This document shows positions 17,354 to 41,534 of a stretch of 41,534 nucleotides of DNA, in pieces (the stretch's first letter is position 1; each line of letters opens with the position of its first letter). The notes beneath the pieces are model-generated. The model saw only the letters and a list, made by a program, of their open reading frames with translations, did no database searches and was not told the DNA's origin. Position numbers and translations under genes: made by a program. This stretch comes from Pseudonocardiales bacterium (lineage in GTDB: Bacteria > Actinomycetota > Actinomycetes > Mycobacteriales > Pseudonocardiaceae): contig JAPLAT010000035.1 in the NCBI GenBank assembly GCA_026393175.1, positions 1 to 41,534 on the forward strand, in the 5' to 3' direction.

Positions 17354-17395
17354 CCGATCGGGCACCTACGGTCAGCACGACTGCAGGAGGCGACG

Positions 17396-22747: not shown

Positions 22748-23535
22748 GCGGCGGCACCGTGACCGCGACACGTGCGGAACTCGTCGGTCTCGACGGCGTG
22801 AGCGTCCGCTTCGGGGACACCGAGGTCCTCGCGCCCACCTCGATCCAGGTGCGCGAGCGTGAGTTCGTCACGCTGTTCGGTCCGAGCGGATGCGGGAAGT
22901 CGACCCTCCTCAACATCGTCGCGGGGTTGCTGGTCCCCAGCTCGGGTCAGGTGCGGTTCGACGGGAAGGCGATCTCGGGGATCAACACCCGGATCGGCTA
23001 CATGACCCAGGACGACACCCTGCTGCCCTGGCGTACGGTCCGGGCGAACGTGGCGATGCCGCTGCGGATGCGCGGCGTCCCGCGCCCCGAGATCGCCGAC
23101 CGGGTCCAGACCTACCTGCGGCTGCTCGACCTCGAGCACGCCGCGGACCGGTACCCGGCCCAGCTGTCGGGTGGTATGAAGCGGCGAGCCCTGCTGGCCC
23201 GCAGCATGATCTACGAGCCTCGGATGCTGCTGATGGACGAGCCCTTCGCCGCCGTCGACGCGAGGCTGCGGGAAGGACTGCACGACGAGGTGCGGCGGGC
23301 GGTGGAGCAGGCGGACCAGACCGTGTTGTTCGTGACCCACGACGTCGCCGAGGCCGCGCTGCTCTCGGACCGCGTCCTGGTGCTCGGACACCGGCCCGGC
23401 CGCGTGGTCGCCGAGCTGACCATGCCCTTCGGAGCGAATCGCGACCTCCGTCGGCTGCGGCTCAGCGAGGAGTACCTCGCAGCCCAGCTGGCCGTGCGCC
23501 GCGCCCTGGACACCGCGGAGGAGGACGATGACTGA
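22744..23535 (+). CDS. ABC transporter ATP-binding protein (SsuB/TauB-like)
   Basis: A 263-residue ATPase with Walker A FGPSGCGKST near residue 50, the Q-loop MTQDDTLLPWRTV, the signature LSGGMKRRALLARS, Walker B MLLMDEPFAAVDA and the H-loop VLFVTHDVAEA. All catalytic parts are intact. The subfamily is that of nitrate/sulfonate/taurine importers. GTG 22744 overlaps the lipoprotein stop by four bases; its own 3' end overlaps the permease start by eight. It energises uptake by the adjacent permease at the inner face of the membrane. Confidence 0.93.
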   Translation: MSGGTVTATRAELVGLDGVSVRFGDTEVLAPTSIQVREREFVTLFGPSGCGKSTLLNIVAGLLVPSSGQVRFDGKAISGINTRIGYMTQDDTLLPWRTVRANVAMPLRMRGVPRPEIADRVQTYLRLLDLEHAADRYPAQLSGGMKRRALLARSMIYEPRMLLMDEPFAAVDARLREGLHDEVRRAVEQADQTVLFVTHDVAEAALLSDRVLVLGHRPGRVVAELTMPFGANRDLRRLRLSEEYLAAQLAVRRALDTAEEDDD

Positions 23536-24355
23536 CACCATGAACGGTCGCGCCCGTGCTGTGGCGACCAGGCCGGCACTAGCATCGGGGATCCGGGACC
23601 GGGTGGCCCGCCACCTGTTGCAGGCGGCGATCCTGGTCGCCTTCCTGCTGCTGTGGCAGTACGCCTCGGGACGCTGGGTCGCGCCACTGTTCATCAGCTC
23701 CCCGGTCGCGGTGTGGGACACTGTCGTCCGCTGGATCGCGGACGGCACGCTCCTCCACCACGCGGTCGCCACGTTCCGGGTCGCGGTGGCCGGTTTCCTG
23801 ATCGGCGGGCTGTCCGCGGTGGTGTTCGGTTACCTGCTCGGCGTCTCGCGGTTCTGGGCGGGGGTGGCGGAGCCGTTCATCACCGCGCTGTACGCGCTGC
23901 CCAAGGTGGCGATCATCCCGCTGCTGATCATCTGGGTGGGCGTCGGTGCGGGGCTGTCGCTGGTCGTCTGCGCGCTGATCGTGTTCCTGCTGCTGTTCTA
24001 CAACACCTTCTACGGCATCCGGGAGGTCAAGCCTGCACTGATCGACGGGGTGCGCATCATGGGCGGCGGCTGGGCGGACGTGGCGTTCAAGGTACGGCTG
24101 CCCTCGGCCTTCGTGTGGATCGTCGCGGGAATGCGGATCTCGGTACCGCAGGCTCTGGTCGGCGTGGTCACCGCGGAGATCCTGGCCGGCAACCGCGGCC
24201 TCGGCTACCTGGTGAGCTTCAACGCGGGCCAGTTCAACACCGCGGGCACCCTGGCCGCGGTGGCGACGCTGCTGCTGATCGGACTGGGGCTCGACCGGGT
24301 GGTCGCGCTGGCCACCCGGAGCGCGCTCGCCTGGCAGCACGGCGGGGGCCGGTGA
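23528..24355 (+). CDS. ABC transporter permease (SsuC/TauC-like)
   Basis: A 275-residue integral membrane protein of the BPD permease family. About six hydrophobic segments are visible, such as AAILVAFLLLW, VAVAGFLIGGLSAVVFGYLL, PLLIIWVGVGAGLSLVVCAL and LAAVATLLLIGLGL. The ATPase-contact (EAA) region reads VRIMGGGWADVAFKVRLPSA. ATG 23528 lies inside the end of the ATPase gene. It completes an importer of the sulfonate/nitrate/taurine class, in the same transcript as the catabolic genes. Confidence 0.92.
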   Translation: MTDTMNGRARAVATRPALASGIRDRVARHLLQAAILVAFLLLWQYASGRWVAPLFISSPVAVWDTVVRWIADGTLLHHAVATFRVAVAGFLIGGLSAVVFGYLLGVSRFWAGVAEPFITALYALPKVAIIPLLIIWVGVGAGLSLVVCALIVFLLLFYNTFYGIREVKPALIDGVRIMGGGWADVAFKVRLPSAFVWIVAGMRISVPQALVGVVTAEILAGNRGLGYLVSFNAGQFNTAGTLAAVATLLLIGLGLDRVVALATRSALAWQHGGGR

Positions 24356-26427
24356 GCGTGCCGGCCGGCGCCGGTCACCGGCCTGCGCTCGCGCGCCTGC
24401 TCGCACCGGCGTCGGTCGCGGTCGTCGGGGCGTCGGAGGGGCTGGGCGGCTTCACCGGGTCCTGCGTGCACAACCTGCTGCGCTACGGGTTCACCGGCCG
24501 GATCCACCCGGTCAACCCGCGGCGCGCCGAGGTGCTCGGCCTCACCTGCCACCCGAGCCTGGCCGAGGTGCCCGGTCCGGTCGACTCCGCCGTGCTGCTC
24601 GTCGGTGCCGACCGGGTGCTGCCGGTGCTGGAGGACTGCGTCGCCGCCGGGATCGACAACGTGATCGTCGCCGCGTCGGGTTTCGGCGAGGGCGGGGCGG
24701 GACCGGCCGGCCTGGCCCGACGACGGGCACTCGACGCCTTCCTGGACCGGCACCGGATCACCCTGCTGGGACCGAGCACCACGGGTGTCGTCAACCTGTT
24801 CGACCGCTACGTTCCGCGCGCGGCCACCAACATGATCGGCCCGGACGGCGTGGTGCCCGGACCGGTGGCGGTCGTCTCGCAGAGCGGCGCGTCGAGCAAC
24901 ATCGTGTTCAACCGCGCGCAGGATCACGGGCTCGCCGTGGGCCTCGCCGTCGCCACCGGGCTACAGGCCACCCTCACGACCTGGGACGTCGTCGAGCACC
25001 TGGCCACCGACGACCGGGTCAGGGTGCTGGCACTGATCGTCGAGGAGCTCGGCCCCGCGGCGGTGTGGCGGCCGCGGGTCCAGGCGGCGGCCGCGGCCGG
25101 CCAGCAGGTCGTCCTGTGCCGGGTCGGCACCTCCGATCGCGGGGCCGCTGCCGCGGCGTCGCACACGGGAGCGGTCGCCGGGCACTGGCGCTCGCAGCGC
25201 GCGGCGCTGCTCGACGCCGGGGTGCTGGTCGTGGACGATCTCGACCAGCTGTGGGAGGTTGCCGCGCTGTGCGCCGCATGGGGCCCGGCGTCCGCACCGG
25301 CACGCCTGGGCGTCGTCGCGCTGTCCGGCGGCGAGGGCGCGCTGATCAGCGACCAGGCCACCGCGGCCGGGATCGCCATGCCCGACCCGTCCGACGCCTT
25401 CGTCGGACTGGTCGGGAAGCATCTCACCCTGACCCGGGGCGCCAACCCCTTCGATCCGTCCGGGGAGATCCTCGGCAAGCCCGACCTACTGGTCCCGATG
25501 CTGGAGCAGTTCTTCGACGACCCGGCTTTCGACCGGGTGCTTCTCGCCTGGCACGTGCTCGACCAGAACGTCCTTCCCGCCCAGCAGGAGGCGCTCGACG
25601 ACCTGTTCGCGCGCTACCGGCACCGGCTCGTGGTCACCGCGTGGCCGCTGTCGACCCTGGACGGGTGGCACCGGCTCGCCGGACCGGGCGCCCCACCGCT
25701 GCTGCCCGGCTCGCACCGAGCCGTCGCGGCGCTCGCCCGCTGGTCCGGATCCGCGCCCATCATGGCGGTGGCACCGGCGGTGACGGCACCGGTCACGCTC
25801 CCGGCCCGGCTCGGCACCGGCTACCACGAGGTCCGGGAGCTGCTGGCGGGTCTCGGCGTCCCCTTCGGCCCGGCGCGTCGGGCCGAAGGGGAGGACGCCG
25901 CCGCGGCGGCGGCGGCGGCGATCGGTCCACCGGTCGTGCTCAAGTCCGACGTCGACTCGATCACCCACAAGTCGGCCGCCGGCCTCGTCGAGCTCGGCCT
26001 GGTCGCCGACGACCAGGTGCGGGCCGCGTGGCGCAGGCTGCACGCGGCGACCGGGTCGGCCACGGTCATCGTCGAGGCACAGCTCACCGGGGAACTGCAG
26101 GTGTTCCTGGGTGCCCGGCGAGACCTGGACGCCGGCCCGGTGCTGGTCTTCGGCTCCGGCGGTTCGGCAGTGGAGTACCTCGACGACATCGGGATGGTTC
26201 CGGCCGGCGCCGACCCACGCCGCGCGATCGCGGCCAGCCGGGTCGGCCGCTTCCTCGCCGACCACACGCCCGCCGTCACCGACGCACTGGCCGACATGCT
26301 GGCCGCGCTGGGCGGCGTCGTGACCGACCCGCGGATCGCCGCCGTCGAGGTCAACCCGGTGATGGTCGACCTCCGGCGGGGCACCGCGCTGGCCGTCGAC
26401 GCACGGATCGAACTCAGCTCGGACTGA
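24352..26427 (+). CDS. NDP-forming acyl-CoA synthetase, alpha-beta fusion (acetate-CoA ligase family)
   Basis: A 691-residue fused ligase. Residues about 10-135 are the CoA-binding domain (LLAPASVAVVGASEGLGGFT), about 150-460 the SucD-like ligase region (VVSQSGASSNIVFNRAQDHG) with the phosphohistidine loop ASHTGAVAG, and about 475-690 an ATP-grasp domain (VVLKSDVDSITHKSAAGLVE, VFGSGGSAVEYL, VEVNPVMVD). It makes acyl-CoA from acid, CoA and ATP via a phosphohistidine. GTG 24352 overlaps the permease stop by four bases. As the last gene after the importer, it probably activates the imported acid, which makes the SucCD-like pair earlier in the operon a second ligase acting elsewhere in the route. 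It converges with an enoyl-CoA hydratase 12 bp away. Confidence 0.9.
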   Translation: MSVPAGAGHRPALARLLAPASVAVVGASEGLGGFTGSCVHNLLRYGFTGRIHPVNPRRAEVLGLTCHPSLAEVPGPVDSAVLLVGADRVLPVLEDCVAAGIDNVIVAASGFGEGGAGPAGLARRRALDAFLDRHRITLLGPSTTGVVNLFDRYVPRAATNMIGPDGVVPGPVAVVSQSGASSNIVFNRAQDHGLAVGLAVATGLQATLTTWDVVEHLATDDRVRVLALIVEELGPAAVWRPRVQAAAAAGQQVVLCRVGTSDRGAAAAASHTGAVAGHWRSQRAALLDAGVLVVDDLDQLWEVAALCAAWGPASAPARLGVVALSGGEGALISDQATAAGIAMPDPSDAFVGLVGKHLTLTRGANPFDPSGEILGKPDLLVPMLEQFFDDPAFDRVLLAWHVLDQNVLPAQQEALDDLFARYRHRLVVTAWPLSTLDGWHRLAGPGAPPLLPGSHRAVAALARWSGSAPIMAVAPAVTAPVTLPARLGTGYHEVRELLAGLGVPFGPARRAEGEDAAAAAAAAIGPPVVLKSDVDSITHKSAAGLVELGLVADDQVRAAWRRLHAATGSATVIVEAQLTGELQVFLGARRDLDAGPVLVFGSGGSAVEYLDDIGMVPAGADPRRAIAASRVGRFLADHTPAVTDALADMLAALGGVVTDPRIAAVEVNPVMVDLRRGTALAVDARIELSSD

Positions 26428-26439
26428 GCCGCGCAGCGG

Positions 26440-27234
26440 TCACGTCCCCTGCCCGAAACGGGGCGGCCGCTTCTCGACGAACGCCGCGATCCCCTCCTCG
26501 GCATCGGCGGTGCCGAAGAGCCGGTCGATCCCGGACGCCTCGGCGCGCATCCCGGCTCGCCGGCCGCCGTCGAGGTGGGCCAGCACGCACGCCTTGAGCT
26601 CCCGCAGCGCCGGGCGGGCCCCCGCGGCGAGGCCTGCGGCGTAGTCCACGGCCTCCGCCACCAGCCGATCGACCGGGTGCACGCTGTTGACCAGGCCCAA
26701 CGCCAACGCCTCGGCGGCGGCGAGCTGGCGTCCGGTGTAGAGCAGGTCCAGCGCCCTGCCCTTGCCCACGACCTCCACGAGCCGCTGCGTGCCGCCCGCC
26801 CCGGGGAGCAGTCCGAGCTTCACCTCGGGGAGCCCGATCCGCGCCTGCTCCGCGAGCATGCGGAGGTCGCACGCCAGTGCCAGCTCCATGCCGCCGCCCA
26901 TCGCATGGCCGTTGACCGCCGCGATGGTCGGCAGCGGGATGGCCTCGATGTCGTCCATCGCCCGCTGGATGCCGCTGATGAACCGGGGCATCTCGTCGGC
27001 GTCGAGCGAGTTCATCATCTTGATGTCGGCGCCGGCGACGAAGCGCGGCCCGGCACCGGTGATGACGAGCGCGCCGACGTCGTCGCGGGCCGCGGTCCGC
27101 GCCATCGCCTGCGAGATCTCCTGCACGAGCGCGAGGTCCAGCGCGTTCGCCGGCGGCCGGTCGACGGTCAGCAGGCCGACCCCGCGGGCGACCTCGATCC
27201 GGACGTGGTGGAGGTCGGTCTCGGTCACGGTCAT
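26440..27234 (-). CDS. Enoyl-CoA hydratase
   Basis: A 264-residue crotonase-fold protein with LLTVDRPPANALDLALVQEI, TGAGPRFVAGADIKMM, AAVNGHAMGGGMELALACDL and GLPEVKLGLLPGAGGTQRL. The Glu in LPEVKLG and the PGAGGTQRL block are those of classical enoyl-CoA hydratases, so of the crotonase-fold genes here this one is the most canonical. FVEKRPPRF closes the protein. ATG 27234 has GGAGGA upstream. It is transcribed convergently to the acyl-CoA synthetase gene and lies downstream of the alpha/beta hydrolase gene (36-bp gap), so those two probably form an operon. Confidence 0.93.
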   Translation of the reverse strand: MTVTETDLHHVRIEVARGVGLLTVDRPPANALDLALVQEISQAMARTAARDDVGALVITGAGPRFVAGADIKMMNSLDADEMPRFISGIQRAMDDIEAIPLPTIAAVNGHAMGGGMELALACDLRMLAEQARIGLPEVKLGLLPGAGGTQRLVEVVGKGRALDLLYTGRQLAAAEALALGLVNSVHPVDRLVAEAVDYAAGLAAGARPALRELKACVLAHLDGGRRAGMRAEASGIDRLFGTADAEEGIAAFVEKRPPRFGQGT

Positions 27235-27270
27235 CTGGTCGTCCTCCGGAATGGTCGGGTCGGTCGCGGC

Positions 27271-28158
27271 TCAGCGGGCTCCGAGCACCCGGTCCAGCCA
27301 GGCCACCAGGTCGGCGATCACCTCGGCACGGTTGGTCTCGTTCAGGATCTCGTGCCGGCCGCCCTCGTAGGTGGCGACCGTGACGTCGGTGAGCCCGGCC
27401 GCTCGGTAGCGCTCGACGACCAGGTCAAGGAGCGCGAGCCCGGCGTTGATCGGGTCCTGGTCACCGGCGACGACGTAGAGCGGGAGGTCCGCGCGGATGC
27501 CGGCGAGCCGTTGCGGGTCGGCCAGCTCGGCGCCGGAGCCGAACATGAGCTTGGACGAGGGGATGTCGGTACCGAAGCCGCAGGCCGGGTCGGCGACGTA
27601 GGCGTCGACGATCGCCTCGTCCCGGCTGAGCCAGTCGGACTCGGTGCGGGCCGGCTCGAACGCCGCGTTGAACCCGGCGAGCTCGAGGGGCTGGTCGAGG
27701 TCGATGGCGGCGGCGATCTGGTCCACCGCCGTCGTCCCCGACAGCACGGCCGCGTCGATGCGGTCGCTGTGGTCGAGCAGGTACTGCTGGGTGGCCATCG
27801 ACCCCATGCTGTGCCCGAGCAGCACGACGGGCACGCCCGGGTGGGCCTCGTGGACCGTCTCCACCAGCGCGCCGACGTCCCCGACCAGACGGTTCCACCC
27901 GTCCTCCCCGAACACCCCGAACCGGGACGGGTCGCCCGCGGTGGCGCCGTGGCCGCGGTGGTCGCCTGCGTAGACCACGAAGCCGGCCGCGTTCAGCGCC
28001 GCCGCGGTCTCCGCGTACCGACGCGCGTGCTCGCCCAGGCCGTGCGCGATCTGGACGACGCCACGCGGGGCCCCCGCCGGATCCCACCGGTAGACCACCA
28101 CCCGGGTGCCGTCCCGGGACACCAGCTCCGAGGTGTGGGCGGGCTCGACGGTGCTCAT
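27271..28158 (-). CDS. Alpha/beta hydrolase, monoacylglycerol lipase-like (lysophospholipase)
   Basis: A 295-residue hydrolase. It has QIAHGLGEHARRYAETAAAL (the HGxGEHxxRY motif of the monoacylglycerol lipase family), YAGDHRGHGATAGDPSRFG, the nucleophile elbow LLGHSMGSMATQQYL, the acid-bearing VAGDQDPIN and the catalytic His in YEGGRHEILNE. The triad is complete. No signal peptide is seen, so it acts in the cytoplasm on mono-esters or similar. ATG 28158 with GAGGAGGAA upstream is the better start than 28185. It is divergent from the first acyl-CoA dehydrogenase gene. Confidence 0.92.
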   Translation of the reverse strand: MSTVEPAHTSELVSRDGTRVVVYRWDPAGAPRGVVQIAHGLGEHARRYAETAAALNAAGFVVYAGDHRGHGATAGDPSRFGVFGEDGWNRLVGDVGALVETVHEAHPGVPVVLLGHSMGSMATQQYLLDHSDRIDAAVLSGTTAVDQIAAAIDLDQPLELAGFNAAFEPARTESDWLSRDEAIVDAYVADPACGFGTDIPSSKLMFGSGAELADPQRLAGIRADLPLYVVAGDQDPINAGLALLDLVVERYRAAGLTDVTVATYEGGRHEILNETNRAEVIADLVAWLDRVLGAR

Positions 28159-28199
28159 CCGGTTCCTCCTCAGCAGGTCGTGCACGGTGGTCGCGCCTA

Positions 28200-28251
28200 G
28201 TGACGGGGCCGCCGGTAGCCGCTAACGTACCGGGTGATCCTTATCAGGAAC
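28200..28251 (+). promoter_or_regulatory. Promoter and candidate operator of the acyl-CoA dehydrogenase cluster
   Basis: GTGACG (28200-28205), 17 nt, TAACGT (28223-28228) gives a good actinobacterial-type promoter reading into the dehydrogenase at 28265. The 17-mer TGATCCTTATCAGGAAC (28235-28251) lies at the predicted start of transcription. It matches 14 of 17 positions with 32344-32360, upstream of the second half of the cluster, so it may be an operator. Confidence 0.45.
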
Positions 28252-28264
28252 AGCGAGGTTTCTC

Positions 28265-29407
28265 ATGGCAGCCCTGCGCGAGCGGCTCACCCCGGAACAG
28301 GCCGACTACGTGAAGGCCGTCGATGCGTTCTGCGAGCGGGAGTGCCCACCACACAAGCTGCGCGCGATGACCGCGGACGGCACCGTCGCCCACGACCACG
28401 CCCTCTACCGGAAGCTGGCGGCAACCGGCTGGCTCGGGTTGACCATCCCCGAGGAGTACGGCGGCTCGGGCGGCGAGCTGTCCGACGTCGCCCTGCTCAC
28501 CGAACGCCTGTCCTACCACCGCCTGCCGGTCACCGGATACCTCACCACGGTCATCACCGCCCAGGCGCTGATCAGGTTCGGTACCGAGGAGCAGAAGCGG
28601 CGCGTGCTCCCCGCGGTGGCCCAGGGTGACGTGCTGTCCATCGCGATCACCGAGCCGGACACCGGATCGGACGCCGCGGCGGTACGCACCCACGCCCGCC
28701 GCCACGGCGACGGCTGGCGGATCAACGGCGAGAAGATCTACACCAGCAACGCCAACCATGCGCGCTGGGTCCTGGTGGTCACGCGCACCGACCCCGACGC
28801 GGCCAAGCACCGCGGCATCTCGCTGTTCCTGGTGCCGATGGACCGGGTGGAGGTGACCAAGCTGGACATGCTCGGACACATCGACACCACCATCACCCGC
28901 TACGCGGATGTCCGCGCCACCGACGCCGACATCGTGGGCGGGCTCGACGCGGGCTGGCAGGCGCTGGTACAGGGGCTCAACAGCGAGCGGATGATCATCG
29001 GTGCGGAGGCGGTCGGGGTCGGCCAGCGCGCGTTCGACGACGTGCTGCGTTATGTGAAGGAACGCCACCAGTTCGGGCAGCCCATCGGACGGTTCCAGGC
29101 GCTGCAGCACGGGCTCGCCGAGACGGCCACCAAGCTGCTCGCAGCGCGGCTGCTGGTCCGGCACGTCGCCGAACTGCTGGACGAGGGTGACCCGGCCCCG
29201 GCCGAGGCCTCGATGGCGAAGCTGTTCGCCACCGAGACGGCCAAGGAGGCCGCCCTGCAGGGCATGCAGTTCATGGGCGGGATGGGCTACAGCATGGAGA
29301 GCGACATGCAGTCCTACGTCCGCGACAGCCTCGTCATGACCATCTTCGGGGGCACGTCGCAGATCCAGAAGAACATCATCGCCGGGCAGCTCGGCCTCAA
29401 CGGCTGA
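28265..29407 (+). CDS. Acyl-CoA dehydrogenase
   Basis: A 380-residue FAD enzyme of acyl-CoA alpha,beta-oxidation. It shows TIPEEYGGSGGELSD, the FAD/substrate strand AITEPDTGSDAAAVRTHARR, WRINGEKIYTSNANHA, VKERHQFGQPIGRFQALQH and FMGGMGYSMESDMQSYVRDS. The MCAD-type base in YEGT is replaced (IFGGTSQIQ), but an ER pair in LNSERMIIGAEAVG matches the alternative Glu position of isovaleryl-CoA-type dehydrogenases. ATG 28265 starts the plus-strand cluster behind its own promoter. Electrons should go to ETF. The substrate is unknown. Confidence 0.92.
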   Translation: MAALRERLTPEQADYVKAVDAFCERECPPHKLRAMTADGTVAHDHALYRKLAATGWLGLTIPEEYGGSGGELSDVALLTERLSYHRLPVTGYLTTVITAQALIRFGTEEQKRRVLPAVAQGDVLSIAITEPDTGSDAAAVRTHARRHGDGWRINGEKIYTSNANHARWVLVVTRTDPDAAKHRGISLFLVPMDRVEVTKLDMLGHIDTTITRYADVRATDADIVGGLDAGWQALVQGLNSERMIIGAEAVGVGQRAFDDVLRYVKERHQFGQPIGRFQALQHGLAETATKLLAARLLVRHVAELLDEGDPAPAEASMAKLFATETAKEAALQGMQFMGGMGYSMESDMQSYVRDSLVMTIFGGTSQIQKNIIAGQLGLNG

Positions 29408-29435
29408 CCAGCCCGCACCACGACCGGGGAGCACC

Positions 29436-31103
29436 ATGACCGACGAGCTCAGCGACCGACTCGACGAGCTGGCCGCCCGCGACGACACCTGGGTCACCCG
29501 CGAGGTGCTGCAGCGCTACGTCGACCAGGGCGCCTGGACCGAGCAGAGTTTCGTGCACGACCTCGAGCGGCACGCGGCCGAGCGGCCGGACTCCCTGGCG
29601 ATCATCGATGAGGACGGCCGGCGCACCAGCTACGGCGAATACGAGGAGCGGACCCGGCGGTTGGCGAGCTCGCTGCTGGGTCTCGGCCTGCGGCCCGGCG
29701 ACCGGCTCGCGATGCAGCTGCCGAACTCGAGCGAGTTCTGCCTGACGTTGATGGCCTGCGCCCGGGTCCGGATCATCCCGGTGTTCCTGCACGTCGTCTA
29801 CGACGAGCACGACCTCGACTACGTGCTGAACCTGACGGGGGCCCGGGCGCTGGTCGTCCCCGCCTCGTTCAAGGGCCGCGACTTCGTCCCGCTGGCCCGC
29901 ACGATGCGCGACCGGATCGCCGTGCTGGAGCACCTCGTGGTGGCCGGCGGTGACGGCGACGACCTGCTCTCCTTCGAGGACCTGACCGCGGCGGAGCCCG
30001 CGCACGACATCGAAGCGCTGCGGCCCACCGGCGCCGACCCGTTCTTCATCATGTTCACCTCAGGCACCACGGGGCGGCCGAAGGCGGAGCTGCACACCCA
30101 CGCCAACAACCTGTTCTGGATCCAGAGCTTCGAGCAGGGCCAGCAGTTCCCCCGCGACGCGCAGTGGATCATCGTCACGCCCATCGCGCACCTGACCGGG
30201 CTCGGCCTGGGCGTGCTCTCGGCCCTGCGGCGCGGAGCGGCGTTCACGCTGCTGACCGGCTGGGACGTCAACAGGTGCGTCGAGCTGCTCGAACGCGACG
30301 AGCCGACCTACCTGCTCGGGGCGGCGCCGATGCTCATCGACCTCGCCCGCTTCCCCGACCTCGGCTCCCGCGAGGTGCGGAGCCTGCGCGGCATCTGCTA
30401 TGCCGGTGCCCCCTGCCCGGCCGAGACGCTGAACGCGCTCAACTCCCAGCTGGGCGCCGAGATCGCCGCGTTCTACGGCTACACCGAGGCCGGCGTCACC
30501 TTCATGACCCGGCCCGGCGACCCGATCTCGGTCACCAGTCGCAGCATCGGCTCGGTGCTCGACGGGGTCGAGATGCGACTGGTCGACGACGAGGGCAACG
30601 ACGTCGAGCCGCCCGGCGAGGGCGAGCTCTGGTCGCGCGGGCCGAACTTCGTCGTGGGCTACTACGGCCAGCCGGAGACGACCGCGCGGATGTTCGACGC
30701 CGACGGCTGGTTCCGTTCCGCCGACATCGTCCGCATCGACGCCGACGGCTACGGCTACTTCGTGTCGCGCCGCGACGACCTGATCAACCGGGGCGGGTAC
30801 AAGATCGACCCGCGGGAGATCGAGGAGCTGCTCTACGAGCACCCGCGGGTGGGCCAGGCCGCGGTCGTGGCCATGCCCGACGAGCGGCTCGGGCAGCGGG
30901 CCGCCGTCTTCGTCGTCCCCGCGACCCCGGGCGACGAGGTCGCACTGGCCGACCTGACCACCTTCCTCGAGGGGAAGGGGTTGAGCCGCACCAAATGGCC
31001 GGAGGCGGTCGAGCTGGTCGAGTCCTTCCCGATGACCAGCACCGGCAAGTTCATGCGGTACTCGCTGCGCGAGCGGGCCGAACAGCTGCGCCCGCAGCGA
31101 TGA
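29436..31103 (+). CDS. AMP-dependent acyl-CoA ligase (cyclohexanecarboxylate/DHB ligase-like)
   Basis: A 555-residue adenylate-forming ligase. Motifs: MFTSGTTGRPKAELHTH (P-loop, with Ala-Glu where Gly-Val is usual), FYGYTEAG, SRGPNFVVGYYGQPE, SADIVRIDADGY, SRRDDLINRGGYKIDPREIE and the catalytic Lys in TSTGKFMRYSL. The layout resembles ligases for cyclic or aromatic acids such as cyclohexanecarboxylate or 2,3-dihydroxybenzoate. The ATG has GGGGAG upstream and the gene follows the dehydrogenase by 28 nt. It probably makes the first CoA ester for the dehydrogenases downstream. Confidence 0.9.
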   Translation: MTDELSDRLDELAARDDTWVTREVLQRYVDQGAWTEQSFVHDLERHAAERPDSLAIIDEDGRRTSYGEYEERTRRLASSLLGLGLRPGDRLAMQLPNSSEFCLTLMACARVRIIPVFLHVVYDEHDLDYVLNLTGARALVVPASFKGRDFVPLARTMRDRIAVLEHLVVAGGDGDDLLSFEDLTAAEPAHDIEALRPTGADPFFIMFTSGTTGRPKAELHTHANNLFWIQSFEQGQQFPRDAQWIIVTPIAHLTGLGLGVLSALRRGAAFTLLTGWDVNRCVELLERDEPTYLLGAAPMLIDLARFPDLGSREVRSLRGICYAGAPCPAETLNALNSQLGAEIAAFYGYTEAGVTFMTRPGDPISVTSRSIGSVLDGVEMRLVDDEGNDVEPPGEGELWSRGPNFVVGYYGQPETTARMFDADGWFRSADIVRIDADGYGYFVSRRDDLINRGGYKIDPREIEELLYEHPRVGQAAVVAMPDERLGQRAAVFVVPATPGDEVALADLTTFLEGKGLSRTKWPEAVELVESFPMTSTGKFMRYSLRERAEQLRPQR

Positions 31104-31116
31104 CGCCGGTCCCGCC

Positions 31117-32346
31117 GTGATCGACCTGCGGGAGTTCGTCCGTCCCGGGGACACCGTGGCCTGGGGGCAGGCGGGCGGCGAGCCGCGGGCGTTGATCGGT
31201 GCGCTGCTGCTGCAGGCTCCGGGCCTGGGCGGGGTCACCGCGTTCGTGGGGATGACCTTCGACGACCGGCTCGCCGCGGCGCCCGGCGTGGCGCTGCGCT
31301 CCTACGGCGCCCTCGGCGTGCTCTCGGGCGGGCCGGTGGAGGTGCTGCGCTGCCACATGTCGTCGCTCCCCAGCCTCATCCGCTCCGGCCGTCAGCCGGT
31401 GGACGTGGTGTTCTGCCAGGTCTCACCGGCCGACGCGGACGGCTGTCACGGCCTCGGGGTGAGCGTGGACTACCTCATGGCGGCGGTCGGGACCGCGCGG
31501 GTGGTACTGGCCGAGATCGACCCGTCGGTGCCGGTGACGCACGGGCCGGGTCGGGTGCACGGCTCGGTGTTCGCCGCCACGGTGACCACCGACCGCGGGC
31601 CGACGCCGATCCCCGACCGGCCGGGAGGCGCGATCGAGGCCCGGATCGCCGCGCACGTCGCAGCGCTGGTCCCGGACGGGGCGGTGCTGCAGCTGGGCGT
31701 CGGCGGGCTGGCCACCGCCGTCGCAGGGGCGTTGCGTGGCCACCGCGGGCTGCGCGTGCACAGCGGGCTGGTCGGCGACTGGCTGGTCGATCTGGACGAG
31801 AGCGGTGCACTGGTCACCGGCGACGGGCCGCCGGCCGTCGTGGCGGGCACGGCGCTGGGCACCGACCGGCTCTACCGCTACCTCGACCGCAACCCCCGCG
31901 TCGAGATGCGGCCGGTCGAGCTGGTCCACCCGCCTACGGTCACCGCCGCCCTACCCGGGTTCGTCGCGGTGAACCAGGCGCTGCAGGTCGACCTCGACGG
32001 GCAGGTCGGCGCCGAGTCGGTGGCCGGCCGGTACCTCGGGGCGGTCGGCGGCCAGGTCGACTTCCTGCGCGGTGCCGCGATGTCGGCAGGCGGGGTGGGG
32101 ATCGTGGCGCTGCCGTCGGTGACCACGCACGGCGCGTCCCGGATCGTCGAGCGGCTCGACGGTCCCGTCACCACCTCGGCGGCGGACGTCGGGTGGGTGG
32201 TCACCGAGCACGGTGCGGTCGACCTGCGCGGCCTGACCCGCGGCGAGCGGGCCCGCGCACTGCGAACCGTCGCCGACCCCTCCCACCGGCCCCGCCTCGC
32301 CGACGTGGCCCACCCCCTTTCCCCACCGCCGGCCACGGCGTCATAA
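31117..32346 (+). CDS. Acetyl-CoA hydrolase/transferase family protein (4-hydroxybutyrate CoA-transferase-like)
   Basis: A 409-residue single-chain CoA-transferase. It has FVRPGDTVAWGQAGGEPRAL at the start, DVVFCQVSPADADGCHGLGV, PDGAVLQLGVGGLATAVAGA, and NQALQVDLDGQVGAESVAGR, where the Glu of GQVGAES is at the family's catalytic position. The C-terminus WVVTEHGAVDLRGLTRGERA is also typical. It would swap CoA between an acyl-CoA and a free acid such as acetate. GTG 31117 lies 13 nt after the ligase stop. Having both a ligase and a transferase gives two ways to make the starting CoA ester. Confidence 0.88.
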   Translation: MIDLREFVRPGDTVAWGQAGGEPRALIGALLLQAPGLGGVTAFVGMTFDDRLAAAPGVALRSYGALGVLSGGPVEVLRCHMSSLPSLIRSGRQPVDVVFCQVSPADADGCHGLGVSVDYLMAAVGTARVVLAEIDPSVPVTHGPGRVHGSVFAATVTTDRGPTPIPDRPGGAIEARIAAHVAALVPDGAVLQLGVGGLATAVAGALRGHRGLRVHSGLVGDWLVDLDESGALVTGDGPPAVVAGTALGTDRLYRYLDRNPRVEMRPVELVHPPTVTAALPGFVAVNQALQVDLDGQVGAESVAGRYLGAVGGQVDFLRGAAMSAGGVGIVALPSVTTHGASRIVERLDGPVTTSAADVGWVVTEHGAVDLRGLTRGERARALRTVADPSHRPRLADVAHPLSPPPATAS

Positions 32347-32360
32347 TCCTTATAATGAAC
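32344..32360 (+). promoter_or_regulatory. Second copy of the 17-mer motif, containing TATAAT
   Basis: TAATCCTTATAATGAAC matches 28235-28251 at 14 of 17 positions and contains a perfect TATAAT (32351-32356). It overlaps the CoA-transferase stop and precedes the next gene by 10 nt. It may be an internal promoter or an operator. No -35 is evident. Confidence 0.35.
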
Positions 32361-32370
32361 GGAGACCCCC

Positions 32371-32733
32371 TTGGCGGCAGCCCACCCCTCCTTCCCGCTC
32401 CGCGAGGCGGACGGCGTCACGCGGATGTACGACCTCGGTCTGTGGGACGAGCACACCCTCGCCGTGCCCGACGACCGGCTGGGCGCGCGGGCCTGCGCCG
32501 TCGTCGTACCGGTCGCGGGTGCCGCACCCGACCTGGCCGGCATCTGCGCCTTCCTGCGCGAACGCGATGTGGCGGTGGTGACGCCGTCCGAGGAGCTCGT
32601 GCTCGTCGACGCACTGCCCACCAACGCCGGCGGCAAGATCGACAAGGCCGGGGTGCGCGATGCCGCGCTCGCCGAGCTCCGGTCCCGGCCCGGGCGTCCG
32701 ACCATCCGACCCACCATGGAAGGAACCGCATGA
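32371..32733 (+). CDS. Free-standing C-terminal domain of an AMP-forming acyl-CoA ligase
   Basis: A 120-residue frame that matches only the C-terminal lid of adenylate-forming ligases: DEHTLAVPDDRLGARACAVV and VLVDALPTNAGGKIDKAGVR, with the catalytic Lys kept in NAGGKIDK. The large N-terminal domain with the P-loop is absent. The frame opens at TTG 32371 behind GGAGA; ATG 32425 is an alternative. The stop overlaps the next dehydrogenase start (ATGA), so it is still embedded in the operon. It may be the leftover of a deleted ligase gene or a domain acting in trans; the first is more likely. Confidence 0.65.
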   Translation: MAAAHPSFPLREADGVTRMYDLGLWDEHTLAVPDDRLGARACAVVVPVAGAAPDLAGICAFLRERDVAVVTPSEELVLVDALPTNAGGKIDKAGVRDAALAELRSRPGRPTIRPTMEGTA

Positions 32734-33914
32734 CCAGCCCGCTCGACCAGCTCACCGACACCCAGGCCGATCTCGTCGCCCGCGCCCGGGCGATCGCCCA
32801 GCAGGAGCTGCGCCCCCGCGCCGCCGAGTGGGACCGGCGCGCCGAGTTCCCGGAGGAGCAGTTCCAGCTGCTGCGCGAGGCCGGCCTGACCGGGCTCACC
32901 GTCCCCGTCGAGTACGGCGGCCAGGGCCTGGGGACCTTCGAGGCCTGCCTGGTGCTGGAGGAGCTGTCCGCGGGCTGCCTGGCCAGCGCGATGACGATCC
33001 AGATGCAGGTCAACGGGCCGCCCCGGGTGATCGCCCGGATCGGCACCGACGCGCAGCGCAAGGAGTACCTGCCACGGGTGGCGGACGGTTCGATGTGCTT
33101 CTCGATCGCCATGACCGAGCCCCAGGCCGGCTCCGACGGCACCGCGCTGCAGACCACCCTGCGCCCGCACGGCGACGGGTTCCTGCTCAACGGCGAGAAG
33201 TGCCACATCACCGGTGCGCTGCGGTCGGACGCCTTCCTCGTCTTCTGCCGGGCGCCCGACACCGCCGGCCCCGACGGCATCGGCGCGGTCCTGATCGACC
33301 GCGACGTGGAGGGCCTCGCCCCGATCGAGACCGAGCCGAAGATGGGCGGCCGCGCCGTCGCCGAGGGCATCATGCGCTTCACCGACGTCCCGGTGCGCGC
33401 CGACCAGGTCGTGCTCGAACCGAGGAAGGGCTCCCGGGACGGGGCCAGGTTCCTGATCCGCCAGTTCAACCCGGAGCGCTGCGGCAACGCGGCGATGTCG
33501 CTGGGCCTGGCCCGCAGCGCGCTGGACGACGCGGTCGCCTACGTCAAGCAGCGTGAGCAGTTCGGCCGGCCCATCGTGGAGTTCCAGGGACTGCAGTGGA
33601 AGATCGCCGACATGGCCACCGCCATCGACGCGGCCCGGCTGCTGCTCTGGCGCGCGGCCCGCACCGACGTCGAGGGCTTCCCCGGCATCCGGGAGACCGC
33701 GATGGCGAAGCTCGCCGCGAACGAGGCGGCCCTCATGGTCACCACCGAGGCCCTGCAACTGCTCGGCCACAAGGGTTACCTCACCCGGTACCCGATGGAA
33801 CGCTACGTGCGCGACGCGTTCGGCCTGGGCATCGGCGGCGGCACCACCGCGGTCCTGCGCAACATGATCGCGGGCGAGGTCACCGGCGTCCGCGTCAGCC
33901 AGCGGAAGTCCTGA
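32730..33914 (+). CDS. Acyl-CoA dehydrogenase
   Basis: A 394-residue FAD enzyme. It contains TVPVEYGGQGLGTFEACLVL, FSIAMTEPQAGSDGTALQTT, LLNGEKCHITGALRSDAFLV, VKQREQFGRPIVEFQGLQWK and LLGHKGYLTRYPMERYVRD. The C-terminal GGGTTAVLRN has Gly where MCAD carries its base; NPERCGNAAMSLG supplies a Glu-Arg pair at the alternative base position. ATG 32730 overlaps the stop of the lid-domain gene by four bases and its own stop overlaps the next gene by one base, so the genes are translationally coupled. Confidence 0.92.
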   Translation: MTSPLDQLTDTQADLVARARAIAQQELRPRAAEWDRRAEFPEEQFQLLREAGLTGLTVPVEYGGQGLGTFEACLVLEELSAGCLASAMTIQMQVNGPPRVIARIGTDAQRKEYLPRVADGSMCFSIAMTEPQAGSDGTALQTTLRPHGDGFLLNGEKCHITGALRSDAFLVFCRAPDTAGPDGIGAVLIDRDVEGLAPIETEPKMGGRAVAEGIMRFTDVPVRADQVVLEPRKGSRDGARFLIRQFNPERCGNAAMSLGLARSALDDAVAYVKQREQFGRPIVEFQGLQWKIADMATAIDAARLLLWRAARTDVEGFPGIRETAMAKLAANEAALMVTTEALQLLGHKGYLTRYPMERYVRDAFGLGIGGGTTAVLRNMIAGEVTGVRVSQRKS

Positions 33915-35053
33915 TGGACCTGGCGCTGTCCGCCGAGGCCGTGACCTACCGGGACCAGCTGCGCGCGTGGGTCTCGGAGCACCTGCCCGAGCAGTGGCGC
34001 GACGTCCCGGTGGGCACCGGCGACGACGAGGCGTACGTCGCGATGCGCCGCGAGTGGGGGCGCATGCTGCACCGGGGCGGCTGGTTGGCGCCGCACTGGC
34101 CGGTGGCCCGCGGCGGGCGCGGGCTCGGCGTCGACGCACAGCTGGCGTTCCTCGACGTACTGGTCGCGGCGGGTGCCCCCGAGCAGATGAACACCAACGG
34201 GATGGGCATCTTCGCCCCGGCCCTGATGGCGTTCGGCACCGAGGCGCAGCAGGACCGCTACCTCGGCCCGATGCTGGCCCACGACGACATCTGGTGCCAG
34301 GGCTTCTCCGAGCCCGGGGCCGGGTCCGACCTGGCCGGGTTGGCCACCCGGGCGGTTCCCGACGGCGACCGGTTCGTCGTCTCCGGGCAGAAGGTGTGGA
34401 CCTCCTACGCCCTGTTCGCCCAGCGCTGCTACCTGATGGTCCGGGTCGCCGGGGTGCCGGACGGCGTCACGATGGTGGTGCTGCACATGGACCGGCCGGG
34501 GGTCACCGTCAGGCCGCTGCGCAACATCACCGGCACCAGCGAGTTCTGCGAGGTCTTCCTCGACGAGGTCACCGTCGACGCCGACGACGTGGTGGGCGGG
34601 ATCGGCGACGGGTGGCGGGTGGCCACGTACGCGCTCGCCCGGGAGCGATCGACCGGGTTGGCCCAGCGGGCCCTGCAACTGTCCCGCGAGCTGGAACTGA
34701 TGAACGCCCGGCTGCACCGCGACGGCCACGCCGACGACGTGCTGGTCGACGCGTTCGTGCGCAGCCGGGCGGTGGACAGCACCGTGCGGCGGGTGCTCGC
34801 GACGGTCGCCGACTGAGGCGAGCCGGGGATGCTCGCACCGGTGGCCACGCTGCTGTGGCGCGAGGGTCACCAGGCCCAGCTCGCCACTCTGGTCGAGGCG
34901 GCTGGCCCGGAGGTCACCGGCGCCGGCGAGGGCTGGTCGGACTGGCTGCGGGCCCTGCTGTTCAGCCGGGGGGAGACGATCTACGGCGGCACCTCGGAGA
35001 TCCAGCGCAACCTGATCGCGAAGTCGCTCGGCATGCCGAGCGACCGCGGCTGA
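33914..35053 (+). pseudogene. Acyl-CoA dehydrogenase interrupted by an in-frame TGA
   Basis: A single frame from ATG 33914 to TGA 35053 encodes a normal-length dehydrogenase (380 codons) except for TGA at 34814-34816 (codon 301). Before it come GWLAPHWPVARGGRGLG, GFSEPGAGSDLAGLATRAVP, VSGQKVWTSYALFAQR and ARERSTGLAQRALQLSRE. After it the same frame continues as MLAPVATLLWREGHQAQLAT and ends with IYGGTSEIQRNLIAKSLGMP, the normal C-terminus. The stop falls in the C-terminal helical domain, so the first product lacks the last FAD and dimer contacts. A single C-to-T change from CGA would explain it. ATG 34829, 12 nt after the stop, could restart translation and yield two fragments. Confidence 0.8.
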
Positions 35054-35069
35054 ACGGACGAGGAGCGGG

Positions 35070-36248
35070 ATGGACCACCGGATCGACGACGAGACGGCGG
35101 CGCTGCGCGCGGCGCTGCTGGAGTTCCTGCGCGAGCGGATGCCCGACCCCGGTGCGGAGCCCGGGCCCGGGACGCGGCTGGACGCCTGGCGGGAGCTGGT
35201 CGGGTCGGAGTGGCTGGAGCACTTCGCCTCCGCGGACCGTGCCGATCCGGCCGCGCGGGTCGCGGCGCTGCACGTGGCGGAGGCCTTCGGAGCGGTGCCG
35301 GTCACCGGGCCGGTCGACGTGGTCGCCGGCTACCTGCTGCCGCTTGCCCTGGCGACCACCTGGAGCGCCGGGCTCGACCGGCTGCGCGACGGGTCGCTGG
35401 TCACCGCGCTCGTGCCGGGGATCGACGCTCCCGGCCCCGACGCCGTGCCGCGCCGCCGGGCTCAGCGCCTGGCCGCGGTGCCCGACGGGCACGGGGTACG
35501 GGTGAGCGGCGTGCTGCCGCAGGTGGCCTGCGCCGCGGGCGCCGACGCGGTCGTCGTCGCCACGGAGTTCGGCGGGCGTCCGGCGGTGGCGCTCGTCGAG
35601 CTCGACCGCCCCGGGGTGGTCGTCGGCGAACCGTCCGGTGTGGACCTGCGCAGGCCGGTGGCCGACGTGGCCCTCGACGCCGTCGCGGTCGACGCCGCCG
35701 GGGTCCACGCCCCTCCCGACCTGCTCGATCGCGAGGACGCCTGCGCGGCCGGGCACAGCCTGTTCCTCGACGCCGAGGCCGTCGGCGGTGGCACGGAGGT
35801 GATCGCCCGCACGGTGGCCTACTGCACCGACCGGGTCCAGTTCGGCCGCCCGATCGGCTCCTTCCAGGCCGTCCGGCACCGGTTGGCCGACGTGACGGCG
35901 AAGGTCGAGGGTGCCCGTTCCCTCGCCTACCGCGTGGCCTGGGACCTCGCCGCAGCCGCCGCCGGCGCCCCCGCCGACGTGGTCGCCAGCCGAATGTGGT
36001 CCTCGGGCGCCTACCTCGCGGCGGGAGAGGCGGCGGTGCAGTGTCACGGCGGCGCGGGCTTCACGTGGGAGCAGGGCGTGCACGTGTTCTACCGCGCCGC
36101 CCTCGCCGGGCGCGGCGGCGCCGACCTCGCCGCGGCCCGCACCGCACTCGCTGCGCACCTGCGTGCGCTCGCCGGCCCGGCCCCGGCCGGCCCGGGCACC
36201 GGGCGCGCGGCCGAGCCCGTCGGGGCGACGGGAGGGGCGCACCGATGA
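35070..36248 (+). CDS. Acyl-CoA dehydrogenase-like protein, probable non-catalytic partner subunit
   Basis: A 392-residue member of the family that keeps CTDRVQFGRPIGSFQAVRHR and the C-terminal QCHGGAGFTWEQGVHVFYRA, a pattern typical of beta subunits in actinobacterial heterotetrameric dehydrogenases (FadE pairs). The EPxAGSD strand is replaced by poorly conserved sequence (LVPGIDAPGPDAVPRRR), and neither base position has Glu. It is therefore likely to work only together with a catalytic subunit, and the obvious partner is the interrupted gene just upstream. ATG 35070 has AGGAG upstream. The Ala-rich C-terminal tail is not conserved in the family. Confidence 0.85.
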   Translation: MDHRIDDETAALRAALLEFLRERMPDPGAEPGPGTRLDAWRELVGSEWLEHFASADRADPAARVAALHVAEAFGAVPVTGPVDVVAGYLLPLALATTWSAGLDRLRDGSLVTALVPGIDAPGPDAVPRRRAQRLAAVPDGHGVRVSGVLPQVACAAGADAVVVATEFGGRPAVALVELDRPGVVVGEPSGVDLRRPVADVALDAVAVDAAGVHAPPDLLDREDACAAGHSLFLDAEAVGGGTEVIARTVAYCTDRVQFGRPIGSFQAVRHRLADVTAKVEGARSLAYRVAWDLAAAAAGAPADVVASRMWSSGAYLAAGEAAVQCHGGAGFTWEQGVHVFYRAALAGRGGADLAAARTALAAHLRALAGPAPAGPGTGRAAEPVGATGGAHR

Positions 36249-37048
36249 GCGAACGGGTCGTGCTGGTCGACCGACCGGAGCCGGGTGTCACGGTGATCAC
36301 CCTGAACCGGCCGGCCGCGCGGAACGCGGTCGGGTGGCAGACCTGGGAGGAGCTCGGGCCGGTGGTGTCCGAGGTGGCCGCCGACGACCGCTGCCGGTCG
36401 GTCGTGCTGACCGGGTCGGGCGGGTCGTTCTGCGCCGGTGGGGACGTCAAGTCGTCCCCGTCGCGCGGCACCGGGCTCGGGGCGCCTGCGGCTCGCCTGC
36501 TCGTCGGGCAGCGGGTGCTGGAGGACCTGCTCCGACTGCCCAAACCTGTGCTCGCCGCCGTCGAGGGCCCGGCGATGGGTATCGGCTGGAGCCTGGCGCT
36601 GGCCTGCGACGTCGTCGTCGCGGCCCGCGACGCGGTGTTCGGCGCGCCGTTCGTGCTGCGCGGGCTGGTGCCCGACGGCGGTGCGGCCTGGTTCCTGACC
36701 CGGGCGCTCGGCCGGCAACGGGCCTCGGCCCTGCTGCTCACCGGCGGCCGGATGACCGCGGCGGAGGCCGCCGCGGCGGGCCTGGTCGCGCATCAGGCGG
36801 AGCCGGGTGCCGCGCTCACCGACGCCGTCGCGATGGCCGCGGTCATGGCCCGCGGGCCGGCCGAGGCGCTGCGCCTGACGAAGGGGATGATCCGCGCCGC
36901 CGACGACCTGCCGCTGGAGCGCTTCCTCGAGGTCGAGTGGCTCTCGGCGACACTCGACATCACCGGTCCCGACGCCGTGGAGGGTCGTGCCTCCTTCGTC
37001 GAGAAACGCGAACCCGACTTCTCCGCCGTCCGGGACAGCCCGCTGTAG
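36245..37048 (+). CDS. Enoyl-CoA hydratase/isomerase family protein (PaaG-like active site)
   Basis: A 267-residue crotonase-fold protein with ITLNRPAARNAVGWQTWEEL, TGSGGSFCAGGDVKSS, AAVEGPAMGIGWSLALACDV and LRGLVPDGGAAWFLTRALG. As in the protein at 20955, Asp occupies the VPDGG position, the isomerase-type active site. FVEKREPDF is near the end. ATG 36245 overlaps the dehydrogenase stop by four bases. It should act on the enoyl-CoA products of the neighbouring dehydrogenases. Confidence 0.92.
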   Translation: MSERVVLVDRPEPGVTVITLNRPAARNAVGWQTWEELGPVVSEVAADDRCRSVVLTGSGGSFCAGGDVKSSPSRGTGLGAPAARLLVGQRVLEDLLRLPKPVLAAVEGPAMGIGWSLALACDVVVAARDAVFGAPFVLRGLVPDGGAAWFLTRALGRQRASALLLTGGRMTAAEAAAAGLVAHQAEPGAALTDAVAMAAVMARGPAEALRLTKGMIRAADDLPLERFLEVEWLSATLDITGPDAVEGRASFVEKREPDFSAVRDSPL

Positions 37049-37097: not shown

Positions 37098-38264
37098 ATG
37101 GACTTCGAGCAGGACGAGGATCACGACGCACTGCGCAAGGGCGTGCGCGAGCTGATCGCCCGTTACGACGACGCGTACTGGTCGGCGTGCGACGCCGAGC
37201 ACCGCTTCCCGACCGAGTTCTACCGGACACTCGCCGACGGCGGCTGGCTCGGCGTGGCGATCCCGGAGGAGTACGGCGGCGCCGGGCTGGGCATCACCGA
37301 GGCGGCGCTGCTGCTGCAGGAGGTCGCCTCCTCGGGTGCGGCGATGAACGGCTGCAGCGCCATCCACCTCACGCTGTTCGGGATGAACCCGCTGGTCAAG
37401 CACGGGTCGGCGGAGCTGCGTCGGGAGCTGCTCCCCCGGGTCGTCTCCGGCGACCTGCACGTGTCCTTCGCGGTCACCGAGCCCGACGCCGGCACCGACA
37501 CCAGCCGCATCACCACCCGGGCCCGCCGCGACGGCGACGGCTACGTCGTGGACGGGCGCAAGGTCTGGATCACCAAGGCCCAGCAGGCGGAGTACCTGCT
37601 GCTGCTGACCCGCACCACCCCGTTGGAGGACTGCGCCAAGCGCACCGACGGGATGACGCTGTTCATGGCACCGATGGACCGCTCCGCCATCGACGTCCGC
37701 GAGATCCCCAAGATGGGCCGCAACGCCGTCAACTCCAACGAGCTGTTCATCGACGGCCTGCGGGTGCCCGAGGCGTGTCGCATCGGGGAGGAGGGCCAGG
37801 GCTTCCGCTACCTGCTCGACGGTCTCAACCCCGAACGCATCCTGCTCGCCCACGAGTCGGTCGGCATCGGGCGTTCGGCGGTGGACCGGGCCGTCACCTA
37901 CGCCAGGCAGCGGGTGGTGTTCGACCGCCCGATCGGGCAGAACCAGGGCATCGCGTTCCCGCTCGCCGAGGCCACGATGCGGCTCGACGCCGCCGAGCTG
38001 GTGGCCCGCAAGGCGGCATGGCTCTACGACCGCGGCCGGCCCTGCGCCCGCGAGGCCAACTCGGCGAAGTACCTGGCGGCCGACGCCGCGTTCTTCGCCG
38101 CCGACCGTGCCGTGCAGACCCACGGCGGTTTCGGCTACGCCGTCGAGTACCACGTGGAGCGTTACTTCCGGGAGGCGCGGCTGATGCGGATCGCGCCGAT
38201 CTCCCAGGAGATGGTGCTCAACTACGTCAGCGAACACGTTCTCGGGCTGCCCCGGTCGTACTGA
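37098..38264 (+). CDS. Acyl-CoA dehydrogenase
   Basis: A 388-residue dehydrogenase. Landmarks are AIPEEYGGAGLGITEAALLL, FAVTEPDAGTDTSRITTRAR, VVDGRKVWITKAQQAEYLLL, GLNPERILLAHESVGIGRSA (Glu-Arg at the alternative base position), FDRPIGQNQGIAFPLAEATM and THGGFGYAVEYHVERYFREA. The usual YGGT segment is RIAPISQEM instead, as in a branch of bacterial FadE proteins. ATG 37098 is preceded by GAAGGGG; the open frame upstream to 36987 overlaps the hydratase gene. It seems complete and active. Confidence 0.92.
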   Translation: MDFEQDEDHDALRKGVRELIARYDDAYWSACDAEHRFPTEFYRTLADGGWLGVAIPEEYGGAGLGITEAALLLQEVASSGAAMNGCSAIHLTLFGMNPLVKHGSAELRRELLPRVVSGDLHVSFAVTEPDAGTDTSRITTRARRDGDGYVVDGRKVWITKAQQAEYLLLLTRTTPLEDCAKRTDGMTLFMAPMDRSAIDVREIPKMGRNAVNSNELFIDGLRVPEACRIGEEGQGFRYLLDGLNPERILLAHESVGIGRSAVDRAVTYARQRVVFDRPIGQNQGIAFPLAEATMRLDAAELVARKAAWLYDRGRPCAREANSAKYLAADAAFFAADRAVQTHGGFGYAVEYHVERYFREARLMRIAPISQEMVLNYVSEHVLGLPRSY

Positions 38265-40714: not shown

Positions 40715-41534
40715 GCGGGGCCTCCCTGGGCCAGATCGAGCACGGGTCGTTCGGCACTGCGGTTCGACACGGCGTCGGCGAACGCCGCGTCGATGTCGTC
40801 GAGGGCGTAGCGGTGGCCGGAGCCGAGACGGGTGATGACGGGGTCGGTACGCAGGTCGCCGAGCATCCCGACGACGTCGCGGAGGATCTGCGGGTCGTAG
40901 AGCGCGACCCCGACCAGTGAGATGTTGCGCATCAGCAGTGCCAGCGCCGGCACGTGGAACACGTCGGAACCGCGGGTGATCTGCCCCATCTCGATGTAGC
41001 GGCCACCGCGGGCGAGCATCCGGACCCCCTCGTCGACCACGCCCGGCGCCCCGGCGACCTCCAGGACGACGTCGGCGCCCCCGCCGGTGAGCTCCCGCAC
41101 CCGCTCGACCCGTGCGGCCGCGTCACCGATCTCGGTGACGTCGACGGTGGCGTCGGCACCCAGCGCCGTGGCGGCGGCGAGCCGGTCGGCCATCGCGTCG
41201 ACGGCGACGACCAGGCCCGCCCCCATCCGCTTCGCTGCGGCGACCGCGTAGAGGCCCAGCCCACCGGCGCCCTGCACGACGACCCGCTCGCCCGGCCCGA
41301 CCCCGCCGCGCAACAGGCCCATCCAGGACTGGGCGGCCGCGCAGTTGGCGCTGATCCCGTGCTCGGGCGTCATGCCGTCGGGGAGCTTGAACACGTACTG
41401 ACCGCGGCGCAGGTGGTAGTAGTCGGCGAACGCGCCGACGAAGTGCGGCGGTTACGACGGCGGGCGCAGCAGCCCGCCCATCACCCGCTCGCAGGCGTTC
41501 GCCCGGCCCTGGGTGCAGCAGTGGCAGCGCCCGC
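40711..41534 (-). pseudogene. Zinc-dependent alcohol dehydrogenase, 5' beyond the window, interrupted by TAA
   Basis: The gene enters from the right edge. The first visible residues GRCHCCTQGRANACERVMGG belong to the structural zinc lobe of medium-chain dehydrogenases. Then PPS-stop-PPHFVGAFADYYHLRRGQYV shows that TAA at 41452-41454 interrupts an otherwise continuous frame. After it comes a complete nucleotide-binding half (VVVQGAGGLGLYAVAAAKRM, VDVTEIGD, VVLEVAGAPGVVDEG) to the stop at 40711. A GAA-to-TAA change would explain it. The downstream part could be restarted from GTG 41394, but that product lacks the catalytic domain. It is upstream of, and overlaps, the aldehyde dehydrogenase gene. 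A sequencing error is possible. Confidence 0.8.

Follow-up and report, generated by a model that had tools for sequence, protein, structure and literature searches.

A probable recent nonsense pseudogene for a catalytic-type acyl-CoA dehydrogenase subunit in a decaying catabolic module of a Pseudonocardiales bacterium

The window, a stretch of 41,534 nucleotides from a Pseudonocardiales bacterium, carries an acyl-CoA dehydrogenase gene whose reading frame is cut by a single internal TGA, at a position that encodes glycine in every close full-length ortholog. We consider it likely that this gene is a recent nonsense pseudogene within a decaying, redundant catabolic module. This would be ordinary gene decay, and no new mechanism is required by the evidence. 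The window corresponds to contig C39 of a draft genome, here called G000, which comprises 5,547,723 bases in 712 contigs at 90.45% completeness and 5.66% contamination; its relatives of the same genus are called G009, G059, G056, G035, G038 and G027.

An acyl-CoA dehydrogenase gene interrupted at codon 301

The elements of the interrupted gene are as follows.

33914–35053, plus strand: acyl-CoA dehydrogenase gene for a catalytic-type (PimC/ChsE4-like) subunit, 379 codons, interrupted by one internal stop
33914–34816, plus strand: proximal frame, 300 amino acids, with the N-terminal and middle domains and two C-terminal helices; E244 retained
34814–34816, plus strand: in-frame TGA, codon 301; a glycine codon in all six close full-length orthologs
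34829–35053, plus strand: distal frame, 74 amino acids, from an ATG (codon 306); would carry the last three helices
34847–34849, plus strand: codon 312, Thr in the window, whereas all 109 relatives have Lys; private A>C at 34848
34859–34861, plus strand: codon 316, Arg in the window, whereas all 109 relatives have Ser, Ala, Asn or Thr; private A>C at 34859

Read from the ATG at 33914, the frame meets the TGA at codon 301 and is then open, in the same phase, up to the terminal TGA at 35051–35053. The ATG at 34829 is in frame and lies 12 nt past the internal stop. A preliminary description of this DNA had pointed to this arrangement, and its coordinates and frame were correct on re-reading. Since both pieces match single uninterrupted orthologs of the genus, the interrupted frame is, as judged from sequence, one gene in two pieces and not two neighbours. 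The parts before and after the stop are 95.7% and 92.3% identical at the amino acid level to those of G009, and 95.0% and 91.0% identical to those of G059.

The domain assignments follow the same pattern. The N-terminal and middle domains were assigned in the first part, and PF00441 was found in the distal part alone with 28.2 bits. In the read-through translation, PF00441 spans the stop (residues 231–372, 46.6 bits), and PF02771, PF02770 and PF00441 all exceed their cut-offs, placing the read-through protein in the acyl-CoA dehydrogenase superfamily. The window's own genome yielded no second intact copy, the next-best DNA match being 418 bases long at 71%, and the search for a plasmid copy returned a single 123-base match.

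Codon 301 in the orthologs of the genus

We searched 62 genomes of the genus, including the window's own, and counted orthologs among the other 61. Six of them have a close full-length ortholog (73 to 95% identity, E < 1e-150), and in all six it is a single uninterrupted gene, as expected of the intact relatives of a nonsense pseudogene. The comparison of codon 301 in close relatives, which the preliminary description had called for, gave a glycine codon in each: GGG in G009, G059 and G056, GGA in G035, and GGT in G038 and G027. The codon of the window is two bases away from that of its three nearest relatives. The proposal of a nonsense mutation is supported, while the suggested change from CGA to TGA is not, because the relatives have glycine codons at this position. 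None of the six orthologs is split, which rules out a conserved two-gene arrangement; the alternative idea that relatives might carry two separate conserved genes thus found no example.

Two kinds of apparent interruption elsewhere were set aside. A second gene of G027 (contig C270, 72% identity) covers residues 1–300 only, with a match that runs to base 6050 of 6053; it is uninformative about a split, since the contig stops at that point. Several distant paralogs were flagged with one TGA, TAG or TAA. Those listed reach query residues 377–379, so that the flags probably mark their own terminal stops; among 109 realigned loci, stops occur only in L052 (residue 378) and L103 (residue 377). G027, with its identity of 73%, was used in the codon comparison and left out of the private-change counts and of the module comparison.

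Over the whole gene, the window is 94.2% identical in nucleotides to G009 and 93.7% to G059. The grouping of the window with G009 and G059 as a clade is based on pairwise identities rather than on a tree. Between the read-through frame and five relatives, dN/dS ranges from 0.15 to 0.18, as compared to 0.11 to 0.22 among the intact relatives. Given such low values, the break must be very recent, or not real.

A predicted catalytic-type subunit of a heteromeric enzyme

The product of the broken gene is predicted to be the catalytic-type member of a heteromeric acyl-CoA dehydrogenase resembling ChsE4-ChsE5 and PimC. The gene is followed directly by its partner.

35070–36248, plus strand: partner subunit gene, intact, 392 amino acids; carries a PF00441 domain

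The two subunit genes (33914–35053 and 35070–36248) are adjacent and different, and they stand side by side in five relatives too. The partner frame is free of stops in the window, and likewise over the matched stretch of the five relatives, which bears out the earlier claim of an intact partner gene at 35070. In the broken gene, E244 is invariant in all 22 aligned sequences and aligns with E247 of chain A of 4x28, which we take to be the catalytic base. With this residue on the broken gene and an intact partner beside it, the suggestion that the partner has been left without its catalytic subunit is a reasonable fit. The partner is 88.3% identical to its counterparts in both G009 and G059; the broken subunit is closer to its own, at 94.7% and 93.9%.

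Among the NCBIfam models, the best match is PimC, the pimeloyl-CoA dehydrogenase large subunit (TIGR03204). The match extends over nearly the whole model (positions 1–391 of 395), but its score of 189.4 bits is far under the curated cut-off of 623.85, so the protein is not a member of this equivalog. The best PDB sequence matches are 6wy9, 6wy8, 4x28 and 8hk0, and they include Tcur3483, chain A of 4x28 and chain A of 8hk0. We also modelled the structure of the read-through protein from 22 sequences (mean pLDDT 87.4), and its best fold matches include 6wy9 at rank 1, 8hk0 at rank 3 and 4x28 at rank 7. The best matches by fold and by PDB sequence include the alpha2beta2 complexes Tcur3481-Tcur3483, ChsE4-ChsE5 and Fic32-33, the last of which is counted as heteromeric on its title. 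As in these heteromeric enzymes, the window has an adjacent PF00441 partner gene and a glutamate at the position of E247 of 4x28_A. On the other hand, the window gene is only 25 to 28% identical to them in the fold alignments and is cut by a stop, and its assembly as alpha2beta2 with FAD at the interface would be a prediction. The steroid enzymes of this type are described in a review as alpha2beta2 heterotetramers with the catalytic glutamate on only one subunit per pair and FAD at the dimer interface (PMC8399759), and another enzyme is set beside PimCD and ChsE1-ChsE2 as maybe a heterotetramer too (PMC12543098).

In the structure model, codon 301 is flanked by helices 274–299 and 307–330. 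It is predicted to lie in the loop between them, and the stop would consequently remove the last three helices (307–330, 342–356 and 361–371).

Changes at conserved sites behind the stop

The distal part was compared with a family alignment of 109 loci, 29 from the genus search and 80 from a wider search; paralogs are included, and at least one gene is present twice (L017, L057). Residue 312 is lysine in 109 of 109 loci and threonine in the window. At residue 316 the alignment has serine in 94 loci, alanine in 7, asparagine in 4 and threonine in 4, and the window has arginine. In agreement with a loss of constraint after a nonsense mutation, the window carries private replacements at columns invariant in five orthologs at 1 of 239 such columns before the stop versus 3 of 66 behind it (Fisher p 0.033), a contrast that is built on few events and is one among several tests made. 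The same contrast is absent in the other five sequences (p 0.19 to 1.0).

Taken together, the private A>C changes at 34848 and 34859 produce a short inverted repeat, GCCAC-N6-GTGGC (34844–34859), of the kind that template switching at a quasipalindrome would leave. They may therefore have arisen in one template-switch event, in which case K312T and S316R would be weaker as two independent signs of relaxed selection. Quasipalindromes are described as hot spots of mutation (PMC7202029).

The surrounding module is eroding in the window and in its relatives

The genes around the two subunit genes are listed below.

29436–31103, plus strand: acyl-CoA ligase gene, intact
31117–32346, plus strand: CoA-transferase gene, intact in the window but reduced in G059 to two pieces with only about 190 of 409 residues recognisable
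32371–32733, plus strand: acyl-CoA ligase remnant, with ~31 codons of the start and ~88 codons of the end; ~1.33 kb between them is missing
32730–33914, plus strand: upstream acyl-CoA dehydrogenase gene, intact, 394 amino acids; ends in a stop that overlaps the start codon of the broken gene
36245–37048, plus strand: enoyl-CoA hydratase-family gene, open over its full length
37098–38264, plus strand: acyl-CoA dehydrogenase gene, open over its full length
41452–41454, minus strand: second in-frame stop, TAA, in an alcohol-dehydrogenase-family gene; GAA in G056 and CGA in G009 and G059; 80 bases from the contig end

The ligase gene between the CoA-transferase and the next dehydrogenase is open over its full length in three of the five compared relatives (G056, G035 and G038), with 555 to 620 codons from stop to stop. 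G009 retains other scraps of it than the window does, including a middle piece that is missing from the window, and in G059 nearly all of it is gone. Because the losses take different shapes in the window, G009 and G059, those of the ligase and the CoA-transferase look at least partly independent of each other. Besides the ligase remnant and the stop near the contig end, the module genes that were checked in the window are open; the downstream SDR gene of the module was covered by the family scan only. In the genome as a whole, PF00441 occurs widely: there are 42 stretches, 41 of them without a stop, implying that the step catalysed by the broken enzyme may be redundant.

Alternative explanations for the internal stop

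The main rival explanation is that the draft consensus is wrong at or near codon 301 and that the gene is intact in the organism. We hold this to be improbable, though far from negligible: in our judgement, a real mutation is clearly the likelier of the two. The fragmentation, incompleteness and contamination of the draft speak for an error, as do further in-frame stops in the same assembly, namely the TAA 80 bases from the contig end and a TAG in a ligase gene on contig C55. So do the four private changes, two of them A>C, one G>T and one G>A, that crowd into the 46 nt at 34814–34859, given that A to C is cited as the most frequent Illumina miscall and that wrong calls pile up regionally (PMC3334598). 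However, a systematic signature of sequencing error was not found when substitution classes and clustering were compared with those of the relatives. Private substitutions at the 25,389 shared sites number 481 in the window, as against 482 in G059 (assembled in 3 contigs), 419 in G009 and 668 in G056. After folding by strand, A>C plus G>T changes show no excess: they make up 76 of the window's 481 private substitutions, as against 222 of 1569 for the three relatives together (p 0.375). Counting the private sites at which a cluster of four within 46 nt starts gives 112 for the window, 151 for G056 and 100 for G059, but only 55 for G009. Inner stops are also rare in the draft: there are none in 105 stretches of PF00005 (for which 150 of 211 candidates were scored), none in 58 of PF00106, none in 28 of PF00107 and one in 42 of PF00441, and for PF00501 there is one among the 23 listed of 46 stretches. 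Finally, an error would have to account for a codon that differs by two bases from those of the three nearest relatives. In the less fragmented assemblies of G009 (2 contigs) and G056 (1 contig), a stop occurs in 1 of 112 PF00441 stretches, which means that decayed dehydrogenase copies occur there too.

If the stop is real, it could still be compatible with a complete enzyme in two ways. Ribosomes might re-start at the ATG at 34829, with both chains assembling into a working subunit. The geometry would allow this: the ATG follows the stop by only 12 nt, GAGG lies 10 nt upstream of that ATG, Met306 is present in six of six close orthologs, and in the structure model the stop falls in a loop with Met306 just before a predicted helix. 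A re-start split at this ATG is thus sterically imaginable, yet unlikely. None of the full-length orthologs is split, and the distal part has private changes at family-conserved sites, with losses at codon 312, the conserved lysine, and at codon 316; the natural split into two chains offered by the preliminary description is not upheld by this evidence. We regard a working two-chain subunit as very improbable, and slightly more so the further step in which stop-and-restart chains still assemble with the partner to give a newly born three-chain acyl-CoA dehydrogenase. The other way is that the UGA is read through, by selenocysteine insertion or by a suppressor. Contig C191 of the genome carries SelB (269.6 bits) and tRNA-Sec (68.4 bits), both over their cut-offs, so that UGA is in principle readable as selenocysteine in this organism. 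Bacterial SECIS elements vary. Nevertheless, the relatives have neither cysteine nor selenocysteine at the site, but glycine in all six; a search of 34500–35100 against Rfam gave no family with an E-value of 1 or less; and the 52-nt RNA that starts at the UGA shows no more structure than shuffled sequences (z +0.54), as is also the case for three orthologs tried. Reading of TGA as an amino acid throughout the genome was rejected, since an inner stop is absent from all but one of the 42 PF00441 stretches and from all 191 stretches in three further families (again with 150 of 211 PF00005 candidates scored). A special reading of the genetic code at codon 301 is unlikely and nothing at the site suggests selenocysteine use, so the read-through codon of the preliminary description finds no support; we give this explanation the smallest chance of all those considered.

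The TAG on contig C55 of the window's genome (about 2738–2740, L131) stands at the codon of the P-loop lysine in an otherwise open acyl-CoA ligase gene, where three relatives (80–81% DNA identity) have AAG. In G009, a partial acyl-CoA dehydrogenase domain with an inner TGA (C1, 6034735–6035016, within L134) represents another decayed copy. SelB and tRNA-Sec exceed the family cut-offs in G009 and G059 as well, and all three genomes can probably make selenoproteins, to go by these gene complements.

A recent loss in a redundant pathway

Under the explanation that we prefer, the gene is a recent nonsense pseudogene: in this lineage, TGA would have replaced a glycine codon located in the C-terminal domain, in the loop that joins its second and third helices. 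Translation would end after 300 of 379 residues, giving a product that keeps the catalytic glutamate and is without the last three helices. Such a product would be unlikely to form a folded, partner-binding, FAD-holding enzyme; activity would be lost, and the partner subunit, though intact, would have no catalytic half to work with. This loss may have been tolerated because the module is wearing away in the clade and the genome has many other acyl-CoA dehydrogenases, pointing to relaxed selection as the probable cause.

Frameshifts or in-frame stops are stated to affect a small percentage of the frames in every bacterial genome (PMC2277376). The interrupted coding sequences of the Mycobacterium tuberculosis complex described there resemble the present one in that an otherwise normal gene contains one in-frame stop. 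They differ in that we are dealing here with an actinomycete of another genus and with a pathway gene whose neighbours are eroding too.

For annotation, we suggest labelling the gene a probable pseudogene; the intact partner is not reason enough to assign this dehydrogenase step to the strain. The same module is breaking at different places in three close relatives, with ligase remnants, a reduced CoA-transferase and the dehydrogenase stop, and these differing breaks would give a small natural series on the loss of a redundant degradation pathway.

A further observation concerns the left part of the window. The stretch 13778–32436 is 97.4% identical to G009, as compared to 92.7 to 96.5% for the blocks on the left side and 94.2% on the right side, and is perhaps, to go by these identities, a recently exchanged island. 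Of the region from 13.8 to 26.4 kb, the compared stretch of G059 has no match and G056 has only about 0.6 kb.
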